NCBI RefSeq assembly: GCF_018069625.1
Contig: NZ_CP072941.1
Span: forward strand, 5,022,001-5,086,000
From: Streptomyces yatensis
GTDB lineage: Bacteria; Actinomycetota; Actinomycetes; Streptomycetales; Streptomycetaceae
Length of the DNA stretch: 64,000 nucleotides
Direction of reading: 5' to 3'
Numbering within the stretch: the stretch's first letter is position 1; every line of letters begins with the position of its first letter. A program made the position numbers and the translations under genes. Positions 1 through 12,796 of this stretch are shown here, in pieces. The notes below the pieces were generated by a model, which saw only the letters and a list, made by a program, of their open reading frames with translations, did no database searches and was not told the DNA's origin.

Positions 1-175
1 GCACCTCCGTCTGCCTCTCAGCCAGCCAGTCATCGGCCTCCCTGGACGTGGCAAAGGTGATGGGCGCCGGGCGATCAACGCCATCGGGACCGAGATAGCG
101 CGCCTGATAGCGCCCGGAGCGGAGCTTGCGGATGCGGCCGAAGCTCCGCTTCTTCGATGGCTTCTTCTTCGGCAT
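1..175 (-). CDS. int: AICE site-specific integrase, N-terminal part (cut by window edge)
   Basis: Reading the minus strand from the ATG at 175 gives 58 residues beginning MPKKKPSKKRSFGRI and running into RYQARYLGPDG. That is a basic N-terminus followed by the arm-type DNA-binding fold typical of tyrosine integrases of Streptomyces integrative elements. The catalytic domain lies beyond position 1. The ATG overlaps the xis stop by one base (TGATG), so the two genes should be translationally coupled. The family inserts the element into a tRNA 3' end, which agrees with the tRNA-Gly fragments near 10.3 and 12.8 kb. The family call rests on the visible start, the context and the gene order. Confidence 0.85.
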   Translation of the reverse strand, partial: MPKKKPSKKRSFGRIRKLRSGRYQARYLGPDGVDRPAPITFATSREADDWLAERQTEV

Positions 176-378
176 CAGGCAGCCCGCCCGAGACGCCGAC
201 GCCGAGGCTGCACGGTGTTGGCGTCGATGTACTCCTGAATGACGCTCTCCGGGATCCGTACGTGACGGCCCACCTTGACGTACTTGATGCGCCGCTCGGC
301 GACCAGCCGTCGGGGGAATCGCTGGGTGGTCCCCAGCAGCTCGGCCACCTGAGCAACGCTGAGGTACCGGTCACGCAT
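175..378 (-). CDS. xis: Excisionase, MerR-like helix-turn-helix
   Basis: A 67-residue protein with the excisionase-type winged helix: YLSVAQVAELLGTT at residues 5-18 is the first helix-turn-helix and KVGRHVRIPESVIQEYI at about 35-51 is the wing and helix typical of HTH_17 (DNA-binding protein, excisionase family). Xis directs the integrase towards excision in pSAM2-type elements. The start at 378 is supported by AAGGAGA a few bases upstream. It overlaps the end of repSA by 8 bases and the int start by one, so repSA, xis and int form one coupled unit. Confidence 0.9.
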   Translation of the reverse strand: MRDRYLSVAQVAELLGTTQRFPRRLVAERRIKYVKVGRHVRIPESVIQEYIDANTVQPRRRRLGRAA

Positions 379-1666
379 GGGTCGGTTCTCCTTCCGTTCC
401 GGGAGCGGGGGTGATGGTGGCGCTGAGCCATTCCTCAGCGGGGGTGAGGCCGGTACCGGCGTAGACCCAGTGGGCGAGGACCAGCGTGGTCTCGTCCGGG
501 CCGGAGTCGGTGGCCGCAGCCTGAGCACGTCGCCAGGCAGCGCGGGCGTCGCGGAGCGCGCCGAGGGTGGTGGAGTAGCGGCGGGACTTGGTGGAGAAGT
601 GGCCCCGGAAGCCGAGCATGTGGGCCCAGGCGCGAAGCCGGAGGTGCTCCAGGTCTTTGCGGGCCCCGAGCGCCCAGGCGGTACGGACGAGGCGGCGGGC
701 GTGCTCGCTGATGTCGAGCTGAGCCACCTCGGCGATGAGCCGTATCGGCCGGTCCAGCGCTCCGGTCGCGGTCTCGGCACCCTTGGTGGCGTACTTGGCG
801 ATGTACGCGGCCACGGCACGGTCGGTCAGCTCCTGGCGGCCGTTGAAGTCGGCACCTCGAATGGGCCGTACGTCGAGCTGCCCGCCGAAGGCGAAGGTGC
901 GAGCCCGGCCGTCAATGACGGCTCCGGGGACCTGCACCCTGGAAGCAGCGGTCCGGATTGCGTCAGTCAGCAGCTCGACCGTGGCCCAGGCCGGGGGCGG
1001 GGTGTCGCCGCCGTCGGGGCCGTCGATGCGGATCACGGCATGGAAGTGGACAGCACCGCGCTTTTGGTACTCGGCGACCTTGGCAAAGGACAGCCGCGCA
1101 TGGTCGCGGAAGGCCCGTTGCGTGAGCCCGGCCCGCTTAGCAACCTCCCGCCGCAGGTAGATCGAGAACCGCCGCCACAACAGGCCCGCGTGAGCGTTCC
1201 AGAGCACCGCGGATTCGTAGTCGTACCGGTCCTGGTCGAGAGGCGCTCCAAGGGCGTCGTCGTCCTGGTCGTGGCGGACACCGCAGCGGCACGGGCGACG
1301 GAGACCGGCGGGGCCGGTGGGCCGGTTGTGGACCGGGCCGAAGCTGGGCGCGGTGAAGGTGGCGAAGACCCGGGGATGAGTGGCGACCTCTTCCGGAGTG
1401 CCCTTCCCGCCGCGCAGTCCGGCGGTGATCAGGTGGAAGGTGTCGCGGCGGTAGGTCTCGGCGCAGGCCGCACAGCGGGTGGTACGGCGGTTGTTGCAGC
1501 GGACCAGGAGATGCCCGGCGGGCAGCTCGGCAGAGTCGAGGTGTCGGAGGACGTGGCCAATCTCGCCGGTGTCCTGGTTGAGGTGGTGTTCGATGCGGTG
1601 GCCGTCGAGGCGAATGGGGTTGGTGCAGCCGCCGAGGCCGGAGAGTTGGCGGAGCAGTGCGGGCAT
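371..1666 (-). CDS. repSA: RepSA-type rolling-circle replication initiator
   Basis: Initiator protein of the pSAM2 RepSA family, expected to nick the element's double-strand origin after excision. From the ATG at 1666 it has 431 residues. A cysteine cluster (C57, C65, C68) suggests metal binding. The HUH-type metal site is HFHAVIR at 207-213, and YIAKYATKG at 288-296 carries the likely nicking tyrosine. Upstream of the ATG the frame stays open and similar-looking (LPELRSLAALGT), and an AAAGAGGAG site lies just before two ATC codons at 1729-1724 with no ATG, GTG or TTG nearby. The true start may therefore be a rare ATC (about 452 residues). The stop overlaps xis. A decayed paralogue is at 15297-15482. 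Confidence 0.9.
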   Translation of the reverse strand: MPALLRQLSGLGGCTNPIRLDGHRIEHHLNQDTGEIGHVLRHLDSAELPAGHLLVRCNNRRTTRCAACAETYRRDTFHLITAGLRGGKGTPEEVATHPRVFATFTAPSFGPVHNRPTGPAGLRRPCRCGVRHDQDDDALGAPLDQDRYDYESAVLWNAHAGLLWRRFSIYLRREVAKRAGLTQRAFRDHARLSFAKVAEYQKRGAVHFHAVIRIDGPDGGDTPPPAWATVELLTDAIRTAASRVQVPGAVIDGRARTFAFGGQLDVRPIRGADFNGRQELTDRAVAAYIAKYATKGAETATGALDRPIRLIAEVAQLDISEHARRLVRTAWALGARKDLEHLRLRAWAHMLGFRGHFSTKSRRYSTTLGALRDARAAWRRAQAAATDSGPDETTLVLAHWVYAGTGLTPAEEWLSATITPAPGTEGEPTHA

Positions 1667-2557: not shown

Positions 2558-3184
2558 TCAGAGGCGGGATGCAATGGCGTCGGCCAACGGCGCCGGAACG
2601 CCGAGGCGGGCGCGCAGGGTCTCAGGGTCGATGGGCGATCCAGTACGGGCGTGGTGGTCGTCGGCGAGCTTGCGCGCGTGGTTCACCAGCGCGGCTGGAA
2701 CGTGCGGCGCCGTCCGATTCGACTCCAGCTCCGGACCAGCAGGAGGCTCCGCAGTTTCCGGCTCGGCCGTGACCGATACGGCTTCGGCGGGTCCGGCCAG
2801 AGCCGACGCGGTTTCGGCCGCTGGTGCGGTGTGGGCGAGGAGCGTTCCGCCGAGGAAGGCCACGGCTGGCCATCCAGCGACGAGGATGCGCAGCCAGGCG
2901 GGGACGTCGGTCAGGTCGAGCAGTCCGGCGGTGGCGACGTTGGCCCCGAGTGAGGCGGCCAGGGCGATCACGAACCAGCACCAGCCCGCCGCCTTGGACG
3001 AGCCCGACCGCAGCCGCTTCCAGGCCGCCACAAGCAGCAGGTCAACGGAGACCGGATAGGCCCACGCCTTCCACCCGGCCTGTCCGGCCGCCGAGGCCAG
3101 GTCATGCAGGTGGGCGAAAGACAGCGCAGCAGCGATGACCGCTTGCACCAACACCGCGTCAATCCGCGCCAGGTGAGCGCGCAC
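2558..3184 (-). CDS. DUF2637 membrane protein, SpdB-like
   Basis: An integral membrane protein of the DUF2637 family found in AICEs and actinomycete plasmids. The preferred start is the GTG at 3184, seven bases after GGAAGGAGA. An in-frame ATG at 3211 would add nine residues but has no comparable site. Four hydrophobic segments lie in about residues 10-125 (VLVQAVIAAALSFAHLHDLA, then WAYPVSVDLLLVAAW, then FVIALAASLGANVATAG, then ILVAGWPAVAFLGGTLLAH). A Pro/Ala/Glu linker and a C-terminal soluble piece with ARKLADDHHARTG follow. It lies between the TraSA translocase and small Spd-type ORFs, consistent with a role in intramycelial spread. That role is inferred. Confidence 0.8.
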   Translation of the reverse strand: MRAHLARIDAVLVQAVIAAALSFAHLHDLASAAGQAGWKAWAYPVSVDLLLVAAWKRLRSGSSKAAGWCWFVIALAASLGANVATAGLLDLTDVPAWLRILVAGWPAVAFLGGTLLAHTAPAAETASALAGPAEAVSVTAEPETAEPPAGPELESNRTAPHVPAALVNHARKLADDHHARTGSPIDPETLRARLGVPAPLADAIASRL

Positions 3185-3267
3185 GGGCAATCTCCTTCCG
3201 GATTCAGGCATGGCAGGGGTAGGGACACGGCGCGGGTACGGTCGCGCCGACCGTCAGACGGGGTGGA

Positions 3268-4644
3268 CTACTCGGCAGCCGGAAGCGGCTTGAGCAGGGA
3301 CGCCGGAGCGCTCACCGGAACGGCCGGCACGTCCGGCCGGAACGGCTCCAGCGCGGGCATGTCCGGCACGAGATGAGCGGTCTCGCGGCACACTTCGGCC
3401 GCCTCAGCCAGCGACAGGTACGGCGTACGGATACGGGACCAGCCACCGGACGTATCACCAGCAACAGCGAGACCGGGCCGCTCCGGAGCAATGGCGCAGG
3501 CCGCGCCGACCGCTTCGGGGGCGATGTCGCCGAGTGCCATCTTGGCGGAGGCTTCATCGTTGACGCGGTGGCAGACCCGGCCGGTGAGCTGAGCCCGCAG
3601 CATCGTCGCGCCCTTGCCCAGCTCGGCGCCGAAGCGCTGCCCGCACACCTCCAGGTAGATGCCTGCCGCGCGGCCGAGTTGGGCGAGCCGGATGAGCTGG
3701 GTGACCATCTCATCCCGCCTTTCCTCATCCTTCCGAGTGGCGACGAGGAACAGCTCGGCCACCTCGTCCACAACCAGCACCACCGGCACCGGCCGCTCCT
3801 CCTCCGGCAAGCCCCAGATGTCAGAGGTGATCTCCTCGTCCGGGGTGCTGGGTGCGATGCCCTGCCGGGCCTTGATCAGGTCGTACCGGTCCTCCATCAG
3901 CCCGACCAGTACAGGCAGCAGTTCCGCCGCCTGCACAGGATCGGTGGCCAGCGCCGAGAGCCGTGGAGCGAACGGCACCAGCTCGACCCCCCGCTTGCAG
4001 TCGATCCCGACCAGCGCGACCGGTTGCCGGGCGAGCCCGGCGATGAGGTGCCGCAGGAACATCGACTTCCCCGACAACGTGGCGCCCAGTGTGAGCTGGT
4101 GTGGGATGGCCCGGTAGTCCCGGACGAACGGGGTCGCGTCCTCTCGCAGCGCCACCGGCACCTTGAGGAAGCCACCGCCGGTCTTGCGCGGCATCCGGAC
4201 CTTCCGGAGCACGTCGAAGCCGATCAGCCGCAGTTCGACCACGCCCGGTTTGATCTCCTCCACGTACGCGCCGTGAACGCCCCAGGCATGCCGCAGCCGC
4301 TCGGCCGAGGCTGCCACGTCGGCAGGTTCCTGCCCCGGTGCCAGCCGCAGCCGGACCCGCAGCCCGGTCGACGTGGGCCGGATCAGTCCCCGGCGCGGAG
4401 GCACCGGCCGGACTTCCCGGTGCGTGAGCGCCTGTATCGCCCAGGCCCGCAGCCGGGACGGCGGAACGGTGAGCCCGCAGGCGTCCATCACCGACCCGTA
4501 CGACCCCAGCAGCCGGGCAGTCGAGAGGGGCATCCCGATCGTGGACCAGTAGGCGGCTGGGTGCCGGGACCGGAGGTAGGCGGCCCCGCCGACCATTCCG
4601 GCGACCGGACCACCCACCTCCATCAACGTCATGGCGTCGGTCAT
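3268..4644 (-). CDS. traSA: FtsK/SpoIIIE-type DNA translocase of the AICE (TraSA)
   Basis: The single-protein conjugation motor of pSAM2-like elements, a hexameric ATPase that moves double-stranded DNA between mycelia. It has 458 residues. An N-terminal region precedes the motor domain. Walker A is GATLSGKS at 187-194, Walker B is VVLVVDEVAEL at 288-298, and the downstream RLAQLGRAAGIYLEVCGQR segment matches the FtsK/SpoIIIE family. The start at 4644 follows the stop of the upstream 116-residue gene by five bases, so the two are probably co-transcribed. The likely promoter is under the KorSA-type sites around 5034-5143. Confidence 0.9.
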   Translation of the reverse strand: MTDAMTLMEVGGPVAGMVGGAAYLRSRHPAAYWSTIGMPLSTARLLGSYGSVMDACGLTVPPSRLRAWAIQALTHREVRPVPPRRGLIRPTSTGLRVRLRLAPGQEPADVAASAERLRHAWGVHGAYVEEIKPGVVELRLIGFDVLRKVRMPRKTGGGFLKVPVALREDATPFVRDYRAIPHQLTLGATLSGKSMFLRHLIAGLARQPVALVGIDCKRGVELVPFAPRLSALATDPVQAAELLPVLVGLMEDRYDLIKARQGIAPSTPDEEITSDIWGLPEEERPVPVVLVVDEVAELFLVATRKDEERRDEMVTQLIRLAQLGRAAGIYLEVCGQRFGAELGKGATMLRAQLTGRVCHRVNDEASAKMALGDIAPEAVGAACAIAPERPGLAVAGDTSGGWSRIRTPYLSLAEAAEVCRETAHLVPDMPALEPFRPDVPAVPVSAPASLLKPLPAAE

Positions 4645-4649
4645 CAGGG

Positions 4650-5000
4650 TCAGGCCCCCGCGCCGACGGATATGGCGGCCGGGGCGATGGCCTCGGCCCG
4701 GAAGGCGATGCCGTGCCGCTGCTGCCCGTTGAACACGGACTCCCAGGGCCGGGCGATCAGACCTATCAGCGTGACCGGTGCCCCGAGCGCCAGCCCCTCC
4801 GTGACTCCGCTCTCCGGCACGGTGACCTGAAGCAGCGAGGATTCCCCGCCGTCGATGTAGACGACGCCAAGCCGCATCAGCGCTTCACCGCTCTGCGCGT
4901 CCTTGGCGATCTCGCCGGTCTGCCGGTCCTTCACCTTCGGCTCCGGCGCCTCAGTCAGCAGAACCGTGGCGCCAGAGGTCTCAACTCGGATGGAACGCAA
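4650..5000 (-). CDS. Small conserved AICE protein upstream of traSA
   Basis: One hundred sixteen residues starting at a TTG (5000) right after AAGGAGAAGTAG. It contains an all-beta-looking core (VVYIDGGESSLLQVTVPESGV, then LALGAPVTLIGLIARPW) and no membrane span. It is the first gene of the traSA operon and the one closest to a cluster of three candidate KorSA operators. In pSAM2 KorSA represses pra, the activator of replication, so this is a positional candidate for a Pra-like regulator. Nothing in the sequence proves that. A small OB-fold-like DNA-binding protein is another possibility. Confidence 0.6.
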   Translation of the reverse strand: MRSIRVETSGATVLLTEAPEPKVKDRQTGEIAKDAQSGEALMRLGVVYIDGGESSLLQVTVPESGVTEGLALGAPVTLIGLIARPWESVFNGQQRHGIAFRAEAIAPAAISVGAGA

Positions 5001-5184: not shown

Positions 5185-5970
5185 TCAGTTGGCGGGGAGC
5201 TGGTAGGCGAGGACGTACGCGTCGGCGGCCATCACCGTGTCGCAGACCTCCACCGCCCGCCCCTCCGAGTCGTAGGCGGTCCGGACGAGATGGATCACCG
5301 GCACCCCAGATGCGAGCTGGAGCGTGCGCACCTCAGTGGGCGAGGGCATCCGGGCCCGGATCTCCTCATCGAAGTGGTCCAGGCGGTGCCCCATCTCCTC
5401 CAGCCGGGCATAGATGCCACCGGGGCCGGGGTTCGGCTGCGCGATCGGAGTGTTCCGCGCCAGGTCCAACGGCAGATACGAGGTGGCGAACTCCACCGGC
5501 CGCCCATCCAGCAGATACCGCCGCCGCCGAGCCAGCACCTTACGAGGCGAACCGAGCCGGGCCGAGATGTCCTGCGACGGCCGCTCTTCCTTCACCTCGA
5601 GGTTGTCCACCTCCGGGCGACTGCCCGCCGCCTCTGCCTCCACGGTGAAGGCCGCCTTGCCCTGATCGCGATGACGCCGCGCGAACCGGTCCGAGGCCAG
5701 CCGCCGCACAGGCGGCCGGGGCCGCACAAACACACCCTTGCCGTGCTCGGACAGCACCAGCCCCTCTTGCTGGAGCAGCGACAGAGAGTTGCGGACGGTC
5801 ATCCGGGAGACGCCGAAGTGGTCGACCAGCTCGGTCTCCGAGGGCAGCTTGTCGCCCTCCCGGAAGCGTCCCTTGTCGATCGCTTCCCGCAGTGCATCGG
5901 CGATCTGCCGGAACACCGCCCGGTCGCTCGTCGGGTCCAATACACCCAGGACGGAAGTCAGAGAAGCCAT
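5185..5970 (-). CDS. korSA: GntR/HutC-family repressor of the AICE (KorSA-like)
   Basis: A 261-residue transcription factor. The N-terminal winged helix occupies about residues 12-78 (VFRQIADALREAIDKGRF, then LPSETELVDHFGVSRMTVR) and is followed by a UTRA effector domain up to about 250 (SYLPLDLA and GIYARLEEMGHRLDHFDEEI are typical). In pSAM2, KorSA represses pra and its own promoter and so keeps the element integrated. Its gene neighbours here (traSA operon on one side, pif-like Nudix on the other) match that role. The start at 5970 is ten bases after AAAGGAG. A candidate operator at 5988-6001 lies directly upstream, pointing to autoregulation. Confidence 0.9.
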   Translation of the reverse strand: MASLTSVLGVLDPTSDRAVFRQIADALREAIDKGRFREGDKLPSETELVDHFGVSRMTVRNSLSLLQQEGLVLSEHGKGVFVRPRPPVRRLASDRFARRHRDQGKAAFTVEAEAAGSRPEVDNLEVKEERPSQDISARLGSPRKVLARRRRYLLDGRPVEFATSYLPLDLARNTPIAQPNPGPGGIYARLEEMGHRLDHFDEEIRARMPSPTEVRTLQLASGVPVIHLVRTAYDSEGRAVEVCDTVMAADAYVLAYQLPAN

Positions 5971-6057: not shown

Positions 6058-6489
6058 GTGAGCACTGAGCGCCCGCACTCCGTGAGCGTCGCCGGAGTCA
6101 TCGTCGACGACGCGGGCCGTGCGCTGCTGATCAAGCGACGGGACAACGGTAAGTGGGAACCGCCCGGCGGCGTGCTCGAACGCGGGGAAACCATCCCCGA
6201 CGCCCTGCAACGGGAAGTCCTCGAAGAGACCGGCATCAAGATCGCGCTTCCCGCGACCCTCACCGGCGTCTACAAGAACATGACCGGCCTGATCGTCTCC
6301 ATGGTCTTCCGCTGCGAGGCCATCGACGGCGCCCCGACCACCGGAGCCGAGACCCGCGCCCTGCGCTGGGCCACGCGCGACGAGGTCACCGAGCTCGCCG
6401 ACGAGGCGTACGCGATCCGCGTCCTGGACGCGCTCGACAACACATCCCCGCCGGCCATCCGCGCCCACGACGGCGTACGACTCATCTAG
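6058..6489 (+). CDS. pif: Nudix hydrolase, Pif-like (pSAM2 immunity factor)
   Basis: A 143-residue Nudix protein. The complete box G-x5-E-x7-REVLEETGI is at residues 38-60. In pSAM2 the gene beside korSA, pif, encodes a Nudix protein that prevents redundant transfer between cells already carrying the element. The position here is the same, with korSA divergent. The start is the GTG at 6058 after GAGGAAC. A chromosomal homologue of identical length at 57623-58054 shares both the protein and the 46 bases leading to the start codon. Substrate specificity cannot be read from the sequence. Confidence 0.8.
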   Translation: MSTERPHSVSVAGVIVDDAGRALLIKRRDNGKWEPPGGVLERGETIPDALQREVLEETGIKIALPATLTGVYKNMTGLIVSMVFRCEAIDGAPTTGAETRALRWATRDEVTELADEAYAIRVLDALDNTSPPAIRAHDGVRLI

Positions 6490-6529
6490 CACGAACCCAT
6501 GACCCATAGCCTCTACCAGCATGAAGGGA

Positions 6530-6543
6530 CTTGTATGGACGAG
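6530..6543. promoter_or_regulatory. Candidate KorSA operator overlapping a start codon
   Basis: CTTGTATGGACGAG matches the shared motif in both arms. The ATG at 6535 of the following ATPase gene is inside it, so a bound repressor would cover the translation start region. Confidence 0.5.
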
Positions 6544-6960
6544 TATATGAGTGCTCCGCGAGTTTGGGGCCTGATGTGCCCAGGATCCCGAGAAGAAGTC
6601 ACCCGCGCCCGCCGCTGGACCCGCGACATCCTCAGCAACCACCCCTGCGCCGACGACGCCGAATTGATCGTGAGCGAACTCGGCAGCAACGCCCTCACCC
6701 ACACCGCCAGCGGCACCGCTTACGGCACCTTCCAGCTCACGCTGTCGCTCTCACCCCGCACCGTCGCGATCTCCGTCACCGACGAGGGAGGCCACCCAGA
6801 AGAAGTCAGCCCTACGGAGGCCGACGCAGACGACACCCACGGCCGCGGATTAACCATCGTCATGGCACTCGCCCGCCGCCTGGACATCACCGGCGGCCAG
6901 TACGGCCGCACCGTCACCGCCCAGCTCGTAGCACCCGAGACAGGAGCCACCACATGCTGA
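6535..6960 (+). CDS. RsbW/anti-sigma-like histidine-kinase-type ATPase
   Basis: A 141-residue stand-alone HATPase_c_2 domain. The N box is visible as ELGSNALTHT, the G1 box as DEGGHPE and the G2 glycines as HGRGLTIV. Proteins of this family phosphorylate or sequester anti-sigma antagonists, and Streptomyces has dozens. Here it is AICE cargo located after pif. The ATG at 6535 is preferred over 6499 because GAAGGGAC lies just before it. The end overlaps the next gene by seven bases, indicating a two-gene unit. The partner protein is unknown. Confidence 0.8.
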   Translation: MDEYMSAPRVWGLMCPGSREEVTRARRWTRDILSNHPCADDAELIVSELGSNALTHTASGTAYGTFQLTLSLSPRTVAISVTDEGGHPEEVSPTEADADDTHGRGLTIVMALARRLDITGGQYGRTVTAQLVAPETGATTC

Positions 6961-7367: not shown

Positions 7368-7390
7368 GTTACAACCTTCTCTACGGGTTC

Positions 7391-7684
7391 AAGGCGCCGC
7401 GCAAGCGCGGCGCGCGCGGCCCGGCGGCGCGGGCCGCCGCTCCTGTCTCCGCCCCGCTCCGGCCCGACCGCCGAGCCGCGCGCCAGCAACGGGCACCTTG
7501 GCTGAGGAGAAGGGGTACGTCGTGGCTGGGGGTCGGCTCCACGGCTTTAGGCACCTCCCCGGTCCGGGTCCCGCGTCGGGCAAGGCCAGGGGGCCACTCG
7601 TGCTAATTCCGGGCAGGTCCAAAGCCTGCCCGAGTTGCCAACTAGCGTACGGCCCCCTGACCATGCCCGACCCCAAATCGGGCA
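7391..7684. ncRNA. Structured non-coding block (candidate single-strand origin or element RNA)
   Basis: No convincing reading frame exists between 7368 and about 7765. Instead there is a series of hairpins. A GC-rich stem is at 7394-7413. A 6-bp stem GGCCCG/CGGGCC is at 7418-7435. A nested two-level stem follows, with outer CAGGGGGCC (7587-7595) paired to 7651-7659 and inner CGGGCAGG (7610-7617) paired to 7625-7632. The last is TGCCCGA (7664-7670) paired to 7678-7684. Such clusters are typical of single-strand origins of rolling-circle replicons, of transfer loci (clt) and of structured RNAs. Which of these applies cannot be decided by eye. Confidence 0.45.
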
Positions 7685-7778
7685 GGCCACCGCCCAAACC
7701 CGCTCCACCGACGGCGTCAGCCTCTAGGAGCACCCGATCGAGTTCCGACGCAAAAAGCCTGCGGTTTGGCACCTGATG

Positions 7779-7797
7779 ATGTCATAGTCGATGACAT
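7779..7797. promoter_or_regulatory. Inverted repeat at the start of the HEPN cargo gene
   Basis: ATGTCAT and ATGACAT are perfect 7-bp inverted arms separated by five bases. They lie exactly over the first candidate start codons of the following gene (TTG 7766, ATG 7796). This could be an operator for a DNA-binding regulator or a translation-blocking hairpin. Confidence 0.4.
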
Positions 7798-9676
7798 GCA
7801 CTCTTCGTCACCCAACATGCCTACTTATATAGATCTTGCAGCAGAATGCCTTGACCACGAGAGCGAGAGGTGGTCAGGAGAGGACACCATCAGTCTGCAC
7901 ACGGCAGCTTCCGAGCTGCTGGCATGGGTGAATGACCAACGCAACTACGTGCAGAGGTTCCATAAATCTGCATGGCAGTCGGCAATAGATGACATCGAGC
8001 ATTCACTAAACACCATAGGCAGTTCCCTGCAAGGGCATATCGCTCCCGTTCGAGAAGAGATACTGAGACACACACAAACATGCCTAAAAGATCCGAAGAA
8101 CCCGCAAAGGGAGCCACTAAAGCGAAATTTGCAGCAACTCCTGGAATCACTCCAGTCAACGCAAGCCTTGTCTGCATCCTGGCAGGACTTTCTCCGCTCC
8201 TGCAAACGACCCGAGCACTCGTTGCGTCGAGTCGCAATGACACGAGATGAGTTCTGGGCAATAGCCAAAGCATGCGGCCACAATTGCAAAGAACTGAATA
8301 GCATGCTGAATGGAATTCTCGAAAATGACTTGCAAGGAGTCTATCGCGCAAAAACGGTTCTGGGAGAAGACACTTCTACCTTCCCAGAAAACGTCCGTGA
8401 TCGCATCAACGCTTCGGCCAGTCTAAGCAGAAGAGACCGAGAGGAACTGTGCCTCCGCCTCGTCGAAGCAAAGCCGCGAAAAGCTCATCACATCGTTTGG
8501 CTCACCTACACGTCCGCACTCATCAATAGAGAGGTTATTACCGCAGGTCCTGTAACACTGTACGACGGACCTAAACTACGCGACATGCCTCAAGACGCAG
8601 CAATATTCCCTCAAGAACTTAAACAAACGGATGAGCGAAACATTAGGAGAATATTTCCTAGTGGCGAAAGATTCGTGATGGCACGCGTCGATCTGGGACT
8701 AAGCGCGCTATCCGATGCTCCCGCTCTTGCGCGCAAGCAGGCGTTGGCCGTTATCACGGCAGGATCTACACACGCCAGCGGCAAGAAGGGGAGCTGGAAG
8801 GAATCGGGAGGATTCGTTCATGTAATGGACGGCAGGATCGTCAGTCAGACGATTACCCGCAGCGGCAACTCGCCAATCACAAGATTTCAACTCGACCCGT
8901 TGGCACACGGAATTGATAAAGCAGCCAAAAGAATTTCGACCTACCTGCCTCTCACTTCTCAATCTCTAGTGGAACTTCTCGATTCCGTGAATCTATGGGA
9001 CCGAGCCCAAGGGTACGATGGAACATCATCGGTACTGACAAATGTTAGACTGATTGAGTTGCTAGCCTCGAATAGAGTCGAGGATTGGACCCATTTCTGT
9101 CACCGAGTATTCGAGCACCATTGGACTTGGAGCGATCTTCAATGGGGCTTGCGTCAGGGAATCGATAGAGCAGCCCGAGGATCCTCTGAATTTATCAGCG
9201 AGGAGACCCAGGCCGCCATCGACGAGATATACGGCCGCATATTTGAAGACAAAGATGGCCTCGCCTACTCCGATATGGAGTTGGCGCTAAAATATCTTCC
9301 TGACCTCGCCCAACATTTTTCCGAAAACGAGTTGATTGGCTATCGCCTAAAATCGCTGGAACGCGATTATTCAACTTGTGCACGCTTGAACGCATCACGC
9401 AAGCTCTTGACGAGCAGGTGGAATCGAGCTCTAGCCCGACTTGAGAGAGTTAGGAATGCGCTGACTCACGGCGGTCCGGTGACAGAGGCATCTCTTGACA
9501 GCGTGAGCTCCTTCTCGCGAAAATTGGCGGGGAGCTTGATTTCATATGCGCTTGACGGGGTACTGGACGGCAAATCCGTAGAGGAAACAATGACCGAGGC
9601 TCAAAAACTCGGGGAAGAGTGGCACGCAAATACTCTCACTGCCACATCTCCACACTCTTTCTTGTTCGGAAAGTAG
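7796..9676 (+). CDS. Large HEPN-domain protein, putative defence RNase carried by the AICE
   Basis: The frame is open from a TTG at 7766 (636 residues). ATG at 7796 (626) or 7817 (619) are more ordinary starts, and none has a clear ribosome site. The C-terminal region (about 500-610, counted from 7766) is helical and holds RNALTH at 563-568, the R-x4-H catalytic signature of HEPN ribonucleases, inside RWNRALARLERVRNALTHGG. The preceding 500 residues match nothing I recognise. They look soluble, with coiled helices at 30-150 and a mixed alpha/beta middle. The gene is clearly richer in A/T and in rare codons (AGA, ATA, TTA) than its neighbours, so it was probably acquired recently. A single large HEPN protein as element cargo suggests abortive-infection-type defence. 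No substrate or partner is visible. Confidence 0.75.
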   Translation: MHSSSPNMPTYIDLAAECLDHESERWSGEDTISLHTAASELLAWVNDQRNYVQRFHKSAWQSAIDDIEHSLNTIGSSLQGHIAPVREEILRHTQTCLKDPKNPQREPLKRNLQQLLESLQSTQALSASWQDFLRSCKRPEHSLRRVAMTRDEFWAIAKACGHNCKELNSMLNGILENDLQGVYRAKTVLGEDTSTFPENVRDRINASASLSRRDREELCLRLVEAKPRKAHHIVWLTYTSALINREVITAGPVTLYDGPKLRDMPQDAAIFPQELKQTDERNIRRIFPSGERFVMARVDLGLSALSDAPALARKQALAVITAGSTHASGKKGSWKESGGFVHVMDGRIVSQTITRSGNSPITRFQLDPLAHGIDKAAKRISTYLPLTSQSLVELLDSVNLWDRAQGYDGTSSVLTNVRLIELLASNRVEDWTHFCHRVFEHHWTWSDLQWGLRQGIDRAARGSSEFISEETQAAIDEIYGRIFEDKDGLAYSDMELALKYLPDLAQHFSENELIGYRLKSLERDYSTCARLNASRKLLTSRWNRALARLERVRNALTHGGPVTEASLDSVSSFSRKLAGSLISYALDGVLDGKSVEETMTEAQKLGEEWHANTLTATSPHSFLFGK

Positions 9677-9696
9677 TGAGTGACAACGGAGTGATT

Positions 9697-10095
9697 TCAC
9701 CCAATAAAAGTCTTCACTATGCCAATGAGCGAAGACACGAGTGCAATGACGGCGCCCACGCTGGCAAGTGATGTAGTGGCATTAGGAAATAGTTCTGCGG
9801 AAATTTGACGCCATCGGCGCCTGATTACAATGGCTTTCAATTTCTGCCACTGGTGCTGCTTAATGCGACAACCTCGCAACACACCCCGCCCGTTATTACG
9901 GCACTGCTCTACGTCGCCCCGATTCAGAGCGCCGCATGGGACCGGAGCCTGAAACAAGAACCAAAGGAAGCTGAGACCAGAAAGTGCCGCGATGCCAGCA
10001 GGCCCTATGTCTGACGTCAGCCAGCCAGCAATCGCCACAATAAAGACGAATAGTCCCCAATGCGCCCAAAGTTGGTTTTTCTTTTTCTTGGTCAT
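9697..10095 (-). CDS. Small membrane protein with Cys/His cluster, convergent to the HEPN gene
   Basis: A 132-residue protein from the ATG at 10095 (MTKKKKNQLW). Membrane segments are predicted at about 12-28, 33-50 and 111-129. Between the second and third lies a cytoplasmic loop with C54, C65, C76 and H81 (CRNNGRGVLRGC core), a possible zinc site. The codon choice is A/T-rich like the HEPN gene, and the two stop codons are only about 20 bases apart on opposite strands, so they may have arrived together. No family name can be given. A role as membrane partner or immunity factor of the HEPN protein is possible but unproven. Confidence 0.6.
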   Translation of the reverse strand: MTKKKKNQLWAHWGLFVFIVAIAGWLTSDIGPAGIAALSGLSFLWFLFQAPVPCGALNRGDVEQCRNNGRGVLRGCRIKQHQWQKLKAIVIRRRWRQISAELFPNATTSLASVGAVIALVSSLIGIVKTFIG

Positions 10096-10296: not shown

Positions 10297-10340
10297 TTCC
10301 CAAGCTCAGAGGACGGGTTCGATTCCCGTCACCCGCTCCA
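10297..10340 (+). mobile_element. Right attachment site: 3' end of tRNA-Gly (attR candidate)
   Basis: The 44 bases from TTCCCAA (anticodon loop, CCC) through the T-arm GGGTTCGATTCCC and the acceptor strand CACCCGC, discriminator T and CCA form the 3' half of a tRNA. An acceptor of GCGGGTG and U73 fits glycine. The 5' half is absent, as expected for the distal end of an integrated element whose integrase lies at the other border. The intact tRNA-Gly gene should lie left of this window. Confidence 0.7.
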
Positions 10341-10344
10341 GCAC

Positions 10345-10376
10345 AAAGCCCCAGGCCAGCGGCCCGGGGCTTCTTT
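10345..10376 (+). terminator. Rho-independent-like hairpin after the tRNA fragment
   Basis: AAGCCCC (10346-10352) pairs with GGGGCTT (10366-10372) and there is an inner GCC/GGC. It is followed by TCTTTG. This is the usual tRNA terminator form. A related but mismatched copy follows the second tRNA fragment at 12801-12829. Confidence 0.6.
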
Positions 10377-10597
10377 GTTGCTCAAGGCCGCGGGTGTCTC
10401 CGGCAGCTCGCGTCGACGCACCAAGATCCAGCACAACGCGATCAGGCTTGGGCCAGAGCGATCGAGACGGGTCGGTTGTTATGTGGCGGACGGGACGCGG
10501 GCGTAGGCTCACAACGGCACGATGATCACGCAGACCGGCGCCCAGGAGACGTTCCGATGACCGAGCAGCCCTCTGCCCCGACAGGCCCCTGATACCC

Positions 10598-10909
10598 ATG
10601 CCGGCGCTCACTCCAGCAGCGCTCCGAGCAGCGGTCGCCCAAATCGCCCCCGCCCAGTTGCCTTCCTTCGTCGAGCACCTCGACCGCGCGGTTGAACAAG
10701 CCGCCACTCAGAGCACTATCGCTCCGCTGCGTACGTTCCTGCTGTGGTGGGGAGAATTCGTCGCCATCCAGCGCTACCCCGTGAGGGCGGCCCGCCTGAG
10801 TGAACTGGAAGCCGAGGCAGAAGCAGCAACGGACCGCGAGGCCCTGCGTTCCGCACTCGCCGAGATGCGACAGATCACAGACCTGGCGCAGCGCGAGATC
10901 TCCACCTGA
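10598..10909 (+). CDS. DUF6247-like antitoxin-type protein
   Basis: A 103-residue helical protein (MPALTPAALRAAVAQIAP start, WWGEFVAIQRYPVRAARL middle, acidic helical end). Streptomyces proteins of this shape, DUF6247, sit directly upstream of a small RelE-like gene. Here the following RelE-like sequence begins at 10906 but is damaged, so this would be an orphan antitoxin. The ATG at 10598 has no strong ribosome site. The functional link to toxin neutralisation is inferred from gene order. Confidence 0.65.
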   Translation: MPALTPAALRAAVAQIAPAQLPSFVEHLDRAVEQAATQSTIAPLRTFLLWWGEFVAIQRYPVRAARLSELEAEAEAATDREALRSALAEMRQITDLAQREIST

Positions 10910-11113
10910 GCGATAACTGGGCCTGGGACTACGACCCCGATGCTGACCATGTCGTAGGCAGCCTGTCTCACGAAGTGGTGGCCGAAGAGCAGTTGACGGT
11001 CCTGGGCCGCGACGCGGTCGACGTCGGTCGCGGAAACCCGCACGGCGGAGGTCTGCGGACACAGGACATTTCGGAGGACGGGGCTTCTTCATGTTCATGG
11101 CCGTGGAGCGGCC
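10906..11113 (+). pseudogene. Decayed RelE-like toxin gene, copy 1
   Basis: Homologous to 15047-15250 (NWxWDYDxDAxHV at the start, GRDAVDVGRGNPHGGGLR in the middle). Three lesions are visible. The GTG start of the paralogue is CTG here (10906). Five codons are missing after VVAE. One T is lost at ACATTTCGG, which shifts the frame before an otherwise readable GFFMFMAVER. It overlaps the stop of the DUF6247-like gene as a working toxin-antitoxin pair would. Confidence 0.65.
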
Positions 11114-11182
11114 AGCCCGGCAGACCTCAGCGACCGGCCCGTAGTTCGGGACGAAGCGCGACCAGCACACCAGATGGAGCGA

Positions 11183-11323
11183 TGGACGCTCCGGAGGCGA
11201 CTCCTTCCCAACTCCTCGGACAAGGCACGGGTTTCGTTGCAGCAATTCACCCTCGACTGCCCTACCGAGGATGACTCTGAGCGCCAGCACGGACCTCGCG
11301 GTCGCCTTTAAGGTACCTGGGCG
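11183..11323 (-). pseudogene. Fragment of a tyrosine integrase gene
   Basis: The minus strand encodes about 47 residues (PGTLKATARSVLALRVILGR, then AVEGELLQRNPCLVRGVGKE, then SPPERP) that read like the core-binding to catalytic linker of actinobacterial integrases, where GTL..AY..L, RNPC.I.G and ERP are common. No catalytic residues remain, and the flanking sequence in the frame is unrelated. It lies between the two tRNA-Gly fragments and supports a former element there. Confidence 0.45.
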
Positions 11324-11349
11324 AAGGCTAGTAACCCGCGCAGAGCGCA

Positions 11350-12192
11350 TCAGGGGCGGCCGAGGGCATCTAGCTCGGCGCGGGCCACGTTGACGAACTC
11401 CGCGTGTGCTGCGAGCAGCGCCTCGCTCGCCTCCTGGTAGGCGCTGCGTGCGCGTGCAGGCTCCTGATGTTGCACGTCCCGCAGGAGGGTCTGGTCCCCT
11501 AGGTCAAAGGTCCCGGGCGGAAAGGCATTAAACGCCTCATCAACCGCAGCCGCCGCCTGCTCCTCTAGAGAGCGGCGGTCAGCTCTTTGAGGATTGGTCA
11601 TCAAGACTGAGCCGAGTAAAGTTAGAGCTTCCATGAGGTCTATCGCTGGCCTACTGCCTGCGGGGGAATTGCGTTCCGCGTCGCACATACGGTCGAGAGT
11701 GACCCAGGCTCGCCCCATCGCTGCCTGCCGCTTCTGAGCGTCAGCGATCGCCAACGTGTGCGTGAGTACGCGTTGTGCAGCGTCGGCGACGGTTCCGGGA
11801 GCTTCAAGGGTCACAACGAGGAATGCGGCGCGCACCGCCGCCTCAGCGATGGCAAGGTCTGCCTTGTGAGCTGCTGCAACCTCGCTATCCACCCGGTCTT
11901 CATCAAGGCGTTTAGCTGCTTCGGTCACCTGGTGGGACGCAAGTAGGAACGAGGCGTACGTCTCTCGCTGGACACTGCGGCGCCACTGGACATGCGCAGC
12001 GGATGCCTCGGCGCGCACCGCGTCGAGGGCAGCGCGGTACGTGGCCTCAGCCTGGGCGATACCTGCCCGGCCTGTCTCGTCAGCCGTGCGCAGCGCTGCA
12101 CGCATCTGCCACCGACCGACGAGTAGAGCCGCTGGGATTCCGACCGCAGTGACGCCTGCGGCGGCTATTGCGCCGACTCCTTCAAGATCCAT
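11350..12192 (-). CDS. Hypothetical protein with N-terminal membrane helix and long coiled region
   Basis: A 280-residue protein. A hydrophobic helix spans about residues 7-27 (GAIAAAGVTAVGIPAALLVG). Alanine/glutamate-rich helices follow through the rest (RAGIAQAEATYRAALDAVRA, then HVQWRRSVQRETYASFLLASH). Many Streptomyces genomes carry several such membrane-anchored helical proteins, and their function is not known. The ATG at 12192 lacks a clear ribosome site. It lies between the two tRNA-Gly fragments, so it may be cargo of an older element. Confidence 0.65.
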   Translation of the reverse strand: MDLEGVGAIAAAGVTAVGIPAALLVGRWQMRAALRTADETGRAGIAQAEATYRAALDAVRAEASAAHVQWRRSVQRETYASFLLASHQVTEAAKRLDEDRVDSEVAAAHKADLAIAEAAVRAAFLVVTLEAPGTVADAAQRVLTHTLAIADAQKRQAAMGRAWVTLDRMCDAERNSPAGSRPAIDLMEALTLLGSVLMTNPQRADRRSLEEQAAAAVDEAFNAFPPGTFDLGDQTLLRDVQHQEPARARSAYQEASEALLAAHAEFVNVARAELDALGRP

Positions 12193-12620
12193 AGAGGTGA
12201 TAGTGCCGCATACAGCCGCGTGACGGCCTGCTCAAGGTCGACTCGGTCGCCGTTGCCGAGGAGAGCATGGCGGATCGCCGTAGGCGCGGAGCCGCTGCCT
12301 CAGCGTCATGTACGTCGTGAGCTGTATCAGCGGCTGGCCGTCCCCCACGGGGTTGGGAGCCGCCGCGCATCGCCCGGGCGGCGGCGGCCGCAGTGGCCGC
12401 GAAACTGGCGAGCCTCGGAGCTCCCGATCCCATTGATGACCGCTCCAGCATTGACGCCCGTGGGCCACACCCGGTAGCTGGGGTGAGAAGCGGAGGCAGG
12501 GGCCCTTCAGGAGCGGCACCGTGCGGCGATCGACCTCCTGATGCGGGTGTCTACCTGCCTGGCTCGGCTGTACGCACCGACCGCTTCCTAACGAACCGGT
12601 GCTCGCTACCCAGGTACCAG

Positions 12621-12752
12621 TCCGTGCCCGATGCGTGTCCGATCGGGCGGCGAACCACGGTCCACCAGGGTCTTCGATGAGTCCTGTCACGGCACCGCCG
12701 TCAACCCATTTCAGCTGGTCAGAACCTGTTTCACATCGACCGGTGCCCGTGA
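12621..12752. repeat. Attachment-site arm, copy 2
   Basis: Related to 10171-10296 over its whole length with substitutions and small indels. See that entry for matched pieces. It precedes the second tRNA-Gly fragment. The rest of the 12193-12931 gap shows no gene. Long frames antisense to the tRNA fragment are artefacts. Confidence 0.5.
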
Positions 12753-12796
12753 TTTCCAAGCTCAGAGCGCGGGTTCGATTCCCGTCACCCGCTCCA
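12753..12796 (+). mobile_element. Second tRNA-Gly 3'-end fragment (older attachment site)
   Basis: TTTCCAA, then AGCTCAGAG, then GGGTTCGATTCCC and CACCCGCTCCA. It is the same anticodon-loop-to-CCA segment as 10297-10340, with differences at the anticodon loop and variable loop. A 5' half with GCGGGTG is not present upstream. Two ordered tRNA 3' ends imply two successive integrations, or one element with an inherited satellite segment of about 2.5 kb. Confidence 0.65.

Follow-up and report, generated by a model that had tools for sequence, protein, structure and literature searches.

Effectors with a HEPN domain are common, and the described systems closest to the gene reported here are ApeA, the CARF-HEPN RNases Csm6 and Csx1, and BxaP. 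BxaP, as sections of PMC10799925 describe it, contains DUF4145 and is a rare defence protein, encoded by one gene, that gives phage resistance. Here we analyzed a 64,000-nucleotide stretch of Streptomyces yatensis (NZ_CP072941.1, positions 5,022,001 to 5,086,000; host genome of 10.36 Mb in one contig), hereafter the window, whose left end carries most of an actinomycete integrative and conjugative element (AICE), identified by its gene content and attachment sites. Near the right attachment site (attR) of this element lies an intact gene for a 626-residue protein, called below the cargo gene and the cargo protein (Table 1). We favor, at slightly better than even confidence, a reading in which the cargo protein is a single-gene conflict effector whose HEPN RNase would be held inactive by an N-terminal sensor and released by an invader.

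The cargo protein resembles ApeA (HEPN_Apea, PF18739) in being a single large protein with a C-terminal HEPN region and an R-N-x3-H motif; an hhalign alignment and a non-significant PDB profile match to Ec4ApeA/Ec3ApeA (E 0.8) both cover the motif region. It differs in that PF18739 matched neither the cargo protein nor the window's genome, and in its N terminus, which is modeled as helical plus alpha/beta and has no Pfam match, whereas ApeA-NTD1 consists mainly of beta strands in the account given by parts of PMC3710099. We rejected membership of the ApeA family on these two grounds, the unreached PF18739 cut-off and an N terminus that is not beta-rich, in agreement with a preliminary description of the locus that had failed to fit the protein to ApeA. 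With respect to Csm6 and Csx1, Pfam found no CARF domain in the cargo protein, whole-model fold searches were unhelpful and the best match to the CARF_HEPN models of PADLOC (E 0.048) fell in the C-terminal part. Like BxaP, the cargo gene is rare, stands alone and encodes a predicted HEPN-superfamily domain, but its protein has no DUF4145 match at E <= 1. We found no paper on the cargo family in open-licence PMC.

A C-terminal region with a conserved motif

The preliminary description had placed an A/T-rich open reading frame (ORF) at 7766 or 7796 to 9676, and both points hold: the frame is open from a TTG at 7766 or an ATG at 7796, and its GC content is 51.5%, compared to 69.8% for the window and ~71% for the rep and FtsK-type genes. 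The ATG is the better start because three relatives (P0003, P0004 and P0005) start in the same alignment column; residues are numbered from it here, so that the R563 and H568 named earlier, counted from the TTG, become R553 and H558. The database record of this copy (P0001, 457 residues) starts at an internal ATG and is without the first 169 residues. Structure models, made as single chains, divide the protein into a helical N terminus (residues ~1-225), an alpha/beta middle (~229-352) and a helical C terminus (386-626), with low confidence at residues 355-385.

The RNALTH signature reported earlier at the C terminus is present as R553-N554-x3-H558. Its presence is uninformative when taken alone because the protein holds seven R-x4-6-H strings, against a mean of 5.0 over 2000 shuffles. 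Judged from the alignments, its conservation, unlike its presence, exceeds chance. We retrieved 134 database proteins (14 from a first branch of the family, P0001 included, and the best 120 of 199 matches to a second), and 133 of them conserve RN-x3-HG-x-P; the remaining one, P0009, is a fragment of 420 residues cut off before the motif. Homologues lacking the R-x4-H pair, which would have counted against the preliminary description, are otherwise absent from this set. The feature that marks the superfamily, a conserved Rx4-6H whose R is followed by a polar residue, is present as well. Many HEPN families also show a second acidic residue that is conserved, commonly as Ex3[KR]; in the C-terminal region here no acidic residue is invariant, and conservation reaches 90% or more at D408 and D493.

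In the confident model of the C-terminal region, the motif spans the junction between a helix and the loop that follows it, the location described for HEPN motifs in sections of PMC3710099. HEPN proteins were the three best structural matches of this model among 974 chains. Motif conservation, motif position and structural ranking together support, but do not prove, the earlier proposal of a C-terminal HEPN domain, here delimited as residues 386-626.

The preceding ~385 residues (~500 in the preliminary description) were again unrecognized: nothing convincing came from Pfam, PADLOC, PHROGs, NCBIfam (searched with the window protein alone), PDB sequences or fold searches that used the model of the whole protein. 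For the whole protein, the best E values were 0.045 in Pfam and 0.017 in PADLOC, with no match in NCBIfam and none among PDB sequences at E <= 10; fold searches with the whole model gave generic helical matches only. Weak matches were seen to DUF3037 (one of 18 alignment rows, E 0.0015), phrog_24410 (E 0.02, residues 533-564) and PADLOC PDC-S37 (E 0.017). Outside the motif, the 18 rows agree fully at E274, R297, A308 and R418, so constraint extends to the rest of the protein.

Family and genomic context

The first branch comprises 14 proteins including this copy, found by phmmer and returned again by an alignment-based search; among genomes, the alignment found matches in 8 of 392 from the genus and 4 of 394 from the class (own genome in both, fragments included). 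The second branch (L022, L024, L027 and fragments) was revealed by genome searches and has 199 database matches, of which the 79 outside the best 120 may include first-branch proteins. The two branches were joined by hhalign over 549 columns (probability 99.5%), and a scan of the window's genome with the second-branch profile detects the cargo gene via the motif region (E 7e-6). Because the family searches scored the best 7996 candidates and the genome alignment searches three candidates per genome, these counts are lower bounds.

Judged from these matches, the family is scattered across actinobacteria. Two second-branch copies (L022 and L027) are 86% identical and come from different families of bacteria, which indicates that the gene moves. 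Six of ten genome loci (L018-L027) have long open frames (611-751 codons from the previous stop), one of which (L025) may lack part of its N terminus, and the other four (L020, L021, L023 and L026) hold broken copies. Relatives also occur on six plasmid records (two found with the window protein and five with P0015, one shared). No relative was found among viral contigs and phage records, nor in a named-genome scan with the window protein; a second such scan used the second branch as query. A broken copy (L020, G104:C1) lies near each end of an 11.36-Mb contig, as in terminal inverted repeats.

We compared the window with 38 other relative loci, which are partly dependent (L027 and L060 are apparently the same place, and L074 and L080 are two contigs of one strain with parts of one gene) and in some cases short (for example, 3.9 kb for L077). 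The cargo gene has no widely conserved neighbor: when ORFs of 70 residues or more were compared all against all across the 39 contexts, none recurred in more than four (a serine recombinase in four, a few others in three), and the larger clusters consisted of the cargo gene and its shadow ORFs. The recurring partner of a HEPN-MNT toxin-antitoxin pair is accordingly missing from this comparison, in which MNT was not sought by name. Individual neighbors include TIR genes within 9 kb of plasmid relatives in two records, one with a caspase-family gene as well, mobilization genes beside one plasmid relative, and a Gabija pair (GajA and GajB; L073:5475-11875) ~1 kb from a relative in Agromyces tardus.

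For a family-level view, 208 neighbor ORFs were picked by a simple codon-bias rule that dropped those above 900 residues and missed AT-rich genes, and 124 of them were scanned, leaving out L076 and more distant ORFs. Resolvase, recombinase, integrase and transposase families of Pfam were each matched by 2-3 of the 124, and were absent from the 12 families matched by at least two of 80 control genes. The controls were the rest of the window and the loci of the membrane family described below, unmatched to the neighbors, and the Pfam and PADLOC tallies cover the best 25 families of each list, with single-member families beyond them outside the tally.

Proposed function and alternatives

In the proposed mechanism, the HEPN domain is predicted to act as a metal-independent RNase centered on R553 and H558, and the helical and alpha/beta N-terminal residues probably restrain it and detect invaders. 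Infection would free the RNase to cleave RNA of the host or the phage, and the cell would be arrested before it released phage. HEPN RNases generally work as dimers. Here we infer RNase activity, dimerization, the sensing role and phage, not a plasmid or other element, as the target. Patchy distribution, broken copies and the one Gabija neighbor fit phage defence. A broader proposal, that these proteins form an undescribed actinobacterial family of one-gene, partner-free immune RNases spread on AICEs and plasmids, in which a ~385-residue sensor of no recognized fold controls the HEPN domain, we put forward tentatively, at a little under even confidence. If the protein does sense phage, it would offer a compact one-gene system testable in standard strains of Streptomyces, and the wide second branch many natural variants for trigger mapping; its interest also lies in a protein with no convincing Pfam, NCBIfam or PADLOC match and a long N terminus that matches nothing.

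Three results qualify this reading. The cargo protein has no significant HEPN match in Pfam, PDB sequences or Foldseek. Enrichment of defence genes near the relatives is not established: at 1e-10, 194 PADLOC models were matched by the 124 neighbors and 72 by the 80 control genes, so that control genes match too, and one gene matches many models. Lastly, a link to AICEs as a family trait, which the preliminary description had proposed to check through co-occurrence of homologues with element genes, fared poorly: by tblastn, the AICE gene set was present at one of the 38 other loci (L022). AICE residence thus appears not typical of the family, with the reservation that other AICE types could be missed.

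The main rival, which we regard as unlikely although ahead of the remaining ones, is a HEPN RNase serving conflict between mobile elements, either by excluding or punishing incoming plasmids or AICEs or by element maintenance; these readings are not mutually exclusive. The six plasmid records (one beside mobilization genes), the two AICEs (window and L022) and the recurrence of recombination families among the neighbors argue for it, against which 37 of the 38 other loci are without the tested AICE set and no antitoxin-like neighbor recurs widely. Less probable still is a HEPN-like protein that acts in regulation or RNA binding and is no nuclease, for example a scaffold for an activity of the alpha/beta domain. 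The four invariant residues outside the motif would suit such a role, but the motif R, N and H are kept in 133 of the 134 proteins. By contrast, parts of PMC3710099 describe full or partial loss of the motif in those HEPN domains that are fused to nucleotidyltransferases and taken to bind substrate. That the C terminus is an unrelated helical domain with a coincidental motif seems quite improbable: the missing significant matches and the chance frequency of R-x4-6-H strings speak for it, and motif conservation, motif place and the structural ranking against it. A two-gene system with the convergent membrane protein, suggested by adjacency and similarly low GC content (52.7% for the membrane gene), is the least credible alternative, given the distribution of the membrane family that follows.

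The membrane neighbor and the carrier element

The membrane gene converges on the cargo gene, ending 20 bases past its stop codon, and its cysteine/histidine (Cys/His) protein has three hydrophobic stretches by eye. Its family, which has no Pfam match over cut-off, is common in the genus: 41 of 295 genomes carry a member (own genome included, with a second copy at G000:C1:4175602-4175961). The 38 loci around relatives of the cargo gene hold none. The nearest relative (G191, L050; 79% identical) lies ~9 kb from GntR and SCO3933 relatives, with no HEPN gene in the surrounding 12 kb, where a contig edge 1.7 kb away means that a gene beyond it would be missed. Four genomes (G045, G097, G128 and G267) carry both genes far apart or on different contigs. 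We therefore rejected the membrane protein as a partner, a role that the preliminary description had entertained; to judge from these distributions, it is separate AICE cargo.

AICEs bear predicted phage-protection genes and much decayed cargo, as reported in sections of PMC9513070. The window element has the integrase, excisionase, RepSA, an FtsK-type transfer gene and an attachment site in a tRNA gene, and its transfer is predicted. The remainder of the integrase gene (L017:9018-10175) and the left attachment site (attL), within a tRNA-Gly(CCC) gene, lie left of the window, and the match of attR to the tRNA-Gly copy gives an element of ~11.4 kb. Like pSAM2 and other AICEs, it has genes for replication, transfer, excision and regulation and attaches at a tRNA gene; it differs in its integration at tRNA-Gly with the present cargo. 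With the element genes and both attachment sites identified, the earlier assignment of the gene as cargo of a pSAM2-type AICE is borne out; the tie to pSAM2 itself comes from the RepSA family name.

Table 1 Features of the AICE and its surroundings in the window.
Feature	Position	Strand	Identification
Tyrosine integrase (385 aa), gene 5' end	1..175	-	own sequence, no family-library scan
Excisionase (xis), approximate start	175..378	-	NCBIfam TIGR01764, E 2.8e-14
RepSA replication initiator, approximate start	371..1663	-	Pfam PF20199, E 1.4e-151; NCBIfam NF041486 under cut-off (531 of 700 bits)
DUF2637 protein	2558..3211	-	Pfam PF10935, E 4.7e-24
FtsK/SpoIIIE-type transfer protein	3268..4644	-	Pfam PF01580, E 1.1e-32
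SCO3933-family regulatory protein	4650..5000	-	NCBIfam NF051478 over cut-off
GntR/UTRA regulator, approximate start	5185..5955	-	Pfam GntR and UTRA
Nudix hydrolase	6058..6489	+	Pfam PF00293, E 1.6e-19
RsbW-type HATPase	6499..6960	+	Pfam PF13581, E 1.5e-14
Cargo gene, 626-aa protein	7796..9676	+	open from 7766 (TTG) or 7796 (ATG), intact
Probable HEPN region, residues 386-626	8951..9673	+	predicted local distance difference test 95.3, predicted template modeling score 0.87; HEPN proteins ranks 1-3 of 974 chains
R553-N554-x3-H558 motif (RNALTH)	9452..9469	+	position, alignment conservation
Cys/His membrane protein, 131 aa	9697..10092	-	apparently separate AICE cargo
attR, tRNA-Gly 3' end	10297..10340	+	44 bp, 95% to attL copy, last 27 bp identical
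Second, decayed element	10341..12796	.	outer attachment-site copy 12756-12796, 41 bp identical to attL

The Nudix gene resembles the pSAM2 immunity factor Pif in position and type; it also matches the PADLOC candidate-defence model PDC-S07 (E 1.2e-17), probably through the general Nudix fold. A stretch of ~390 GC-rich bases (7380-7765) separates the AICE regulators from the AT-rich cargo; it holds no nameable gene and may mark a junction. In a DNA search of 60 relatives and the own genome, none of the matches listed outside the own genome reached the cargo gene, and they covered the attachment site and nearby end only. The second element lies between two tRNA-Gly attachment-site copies, at an accretion site, and contains an integrase-like remnant in the ORF at 10526-11350 (minus strand), recognized by eye against the AICE integrase. 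Its outer attachment-site copy is closer to attL than the inner copy is.
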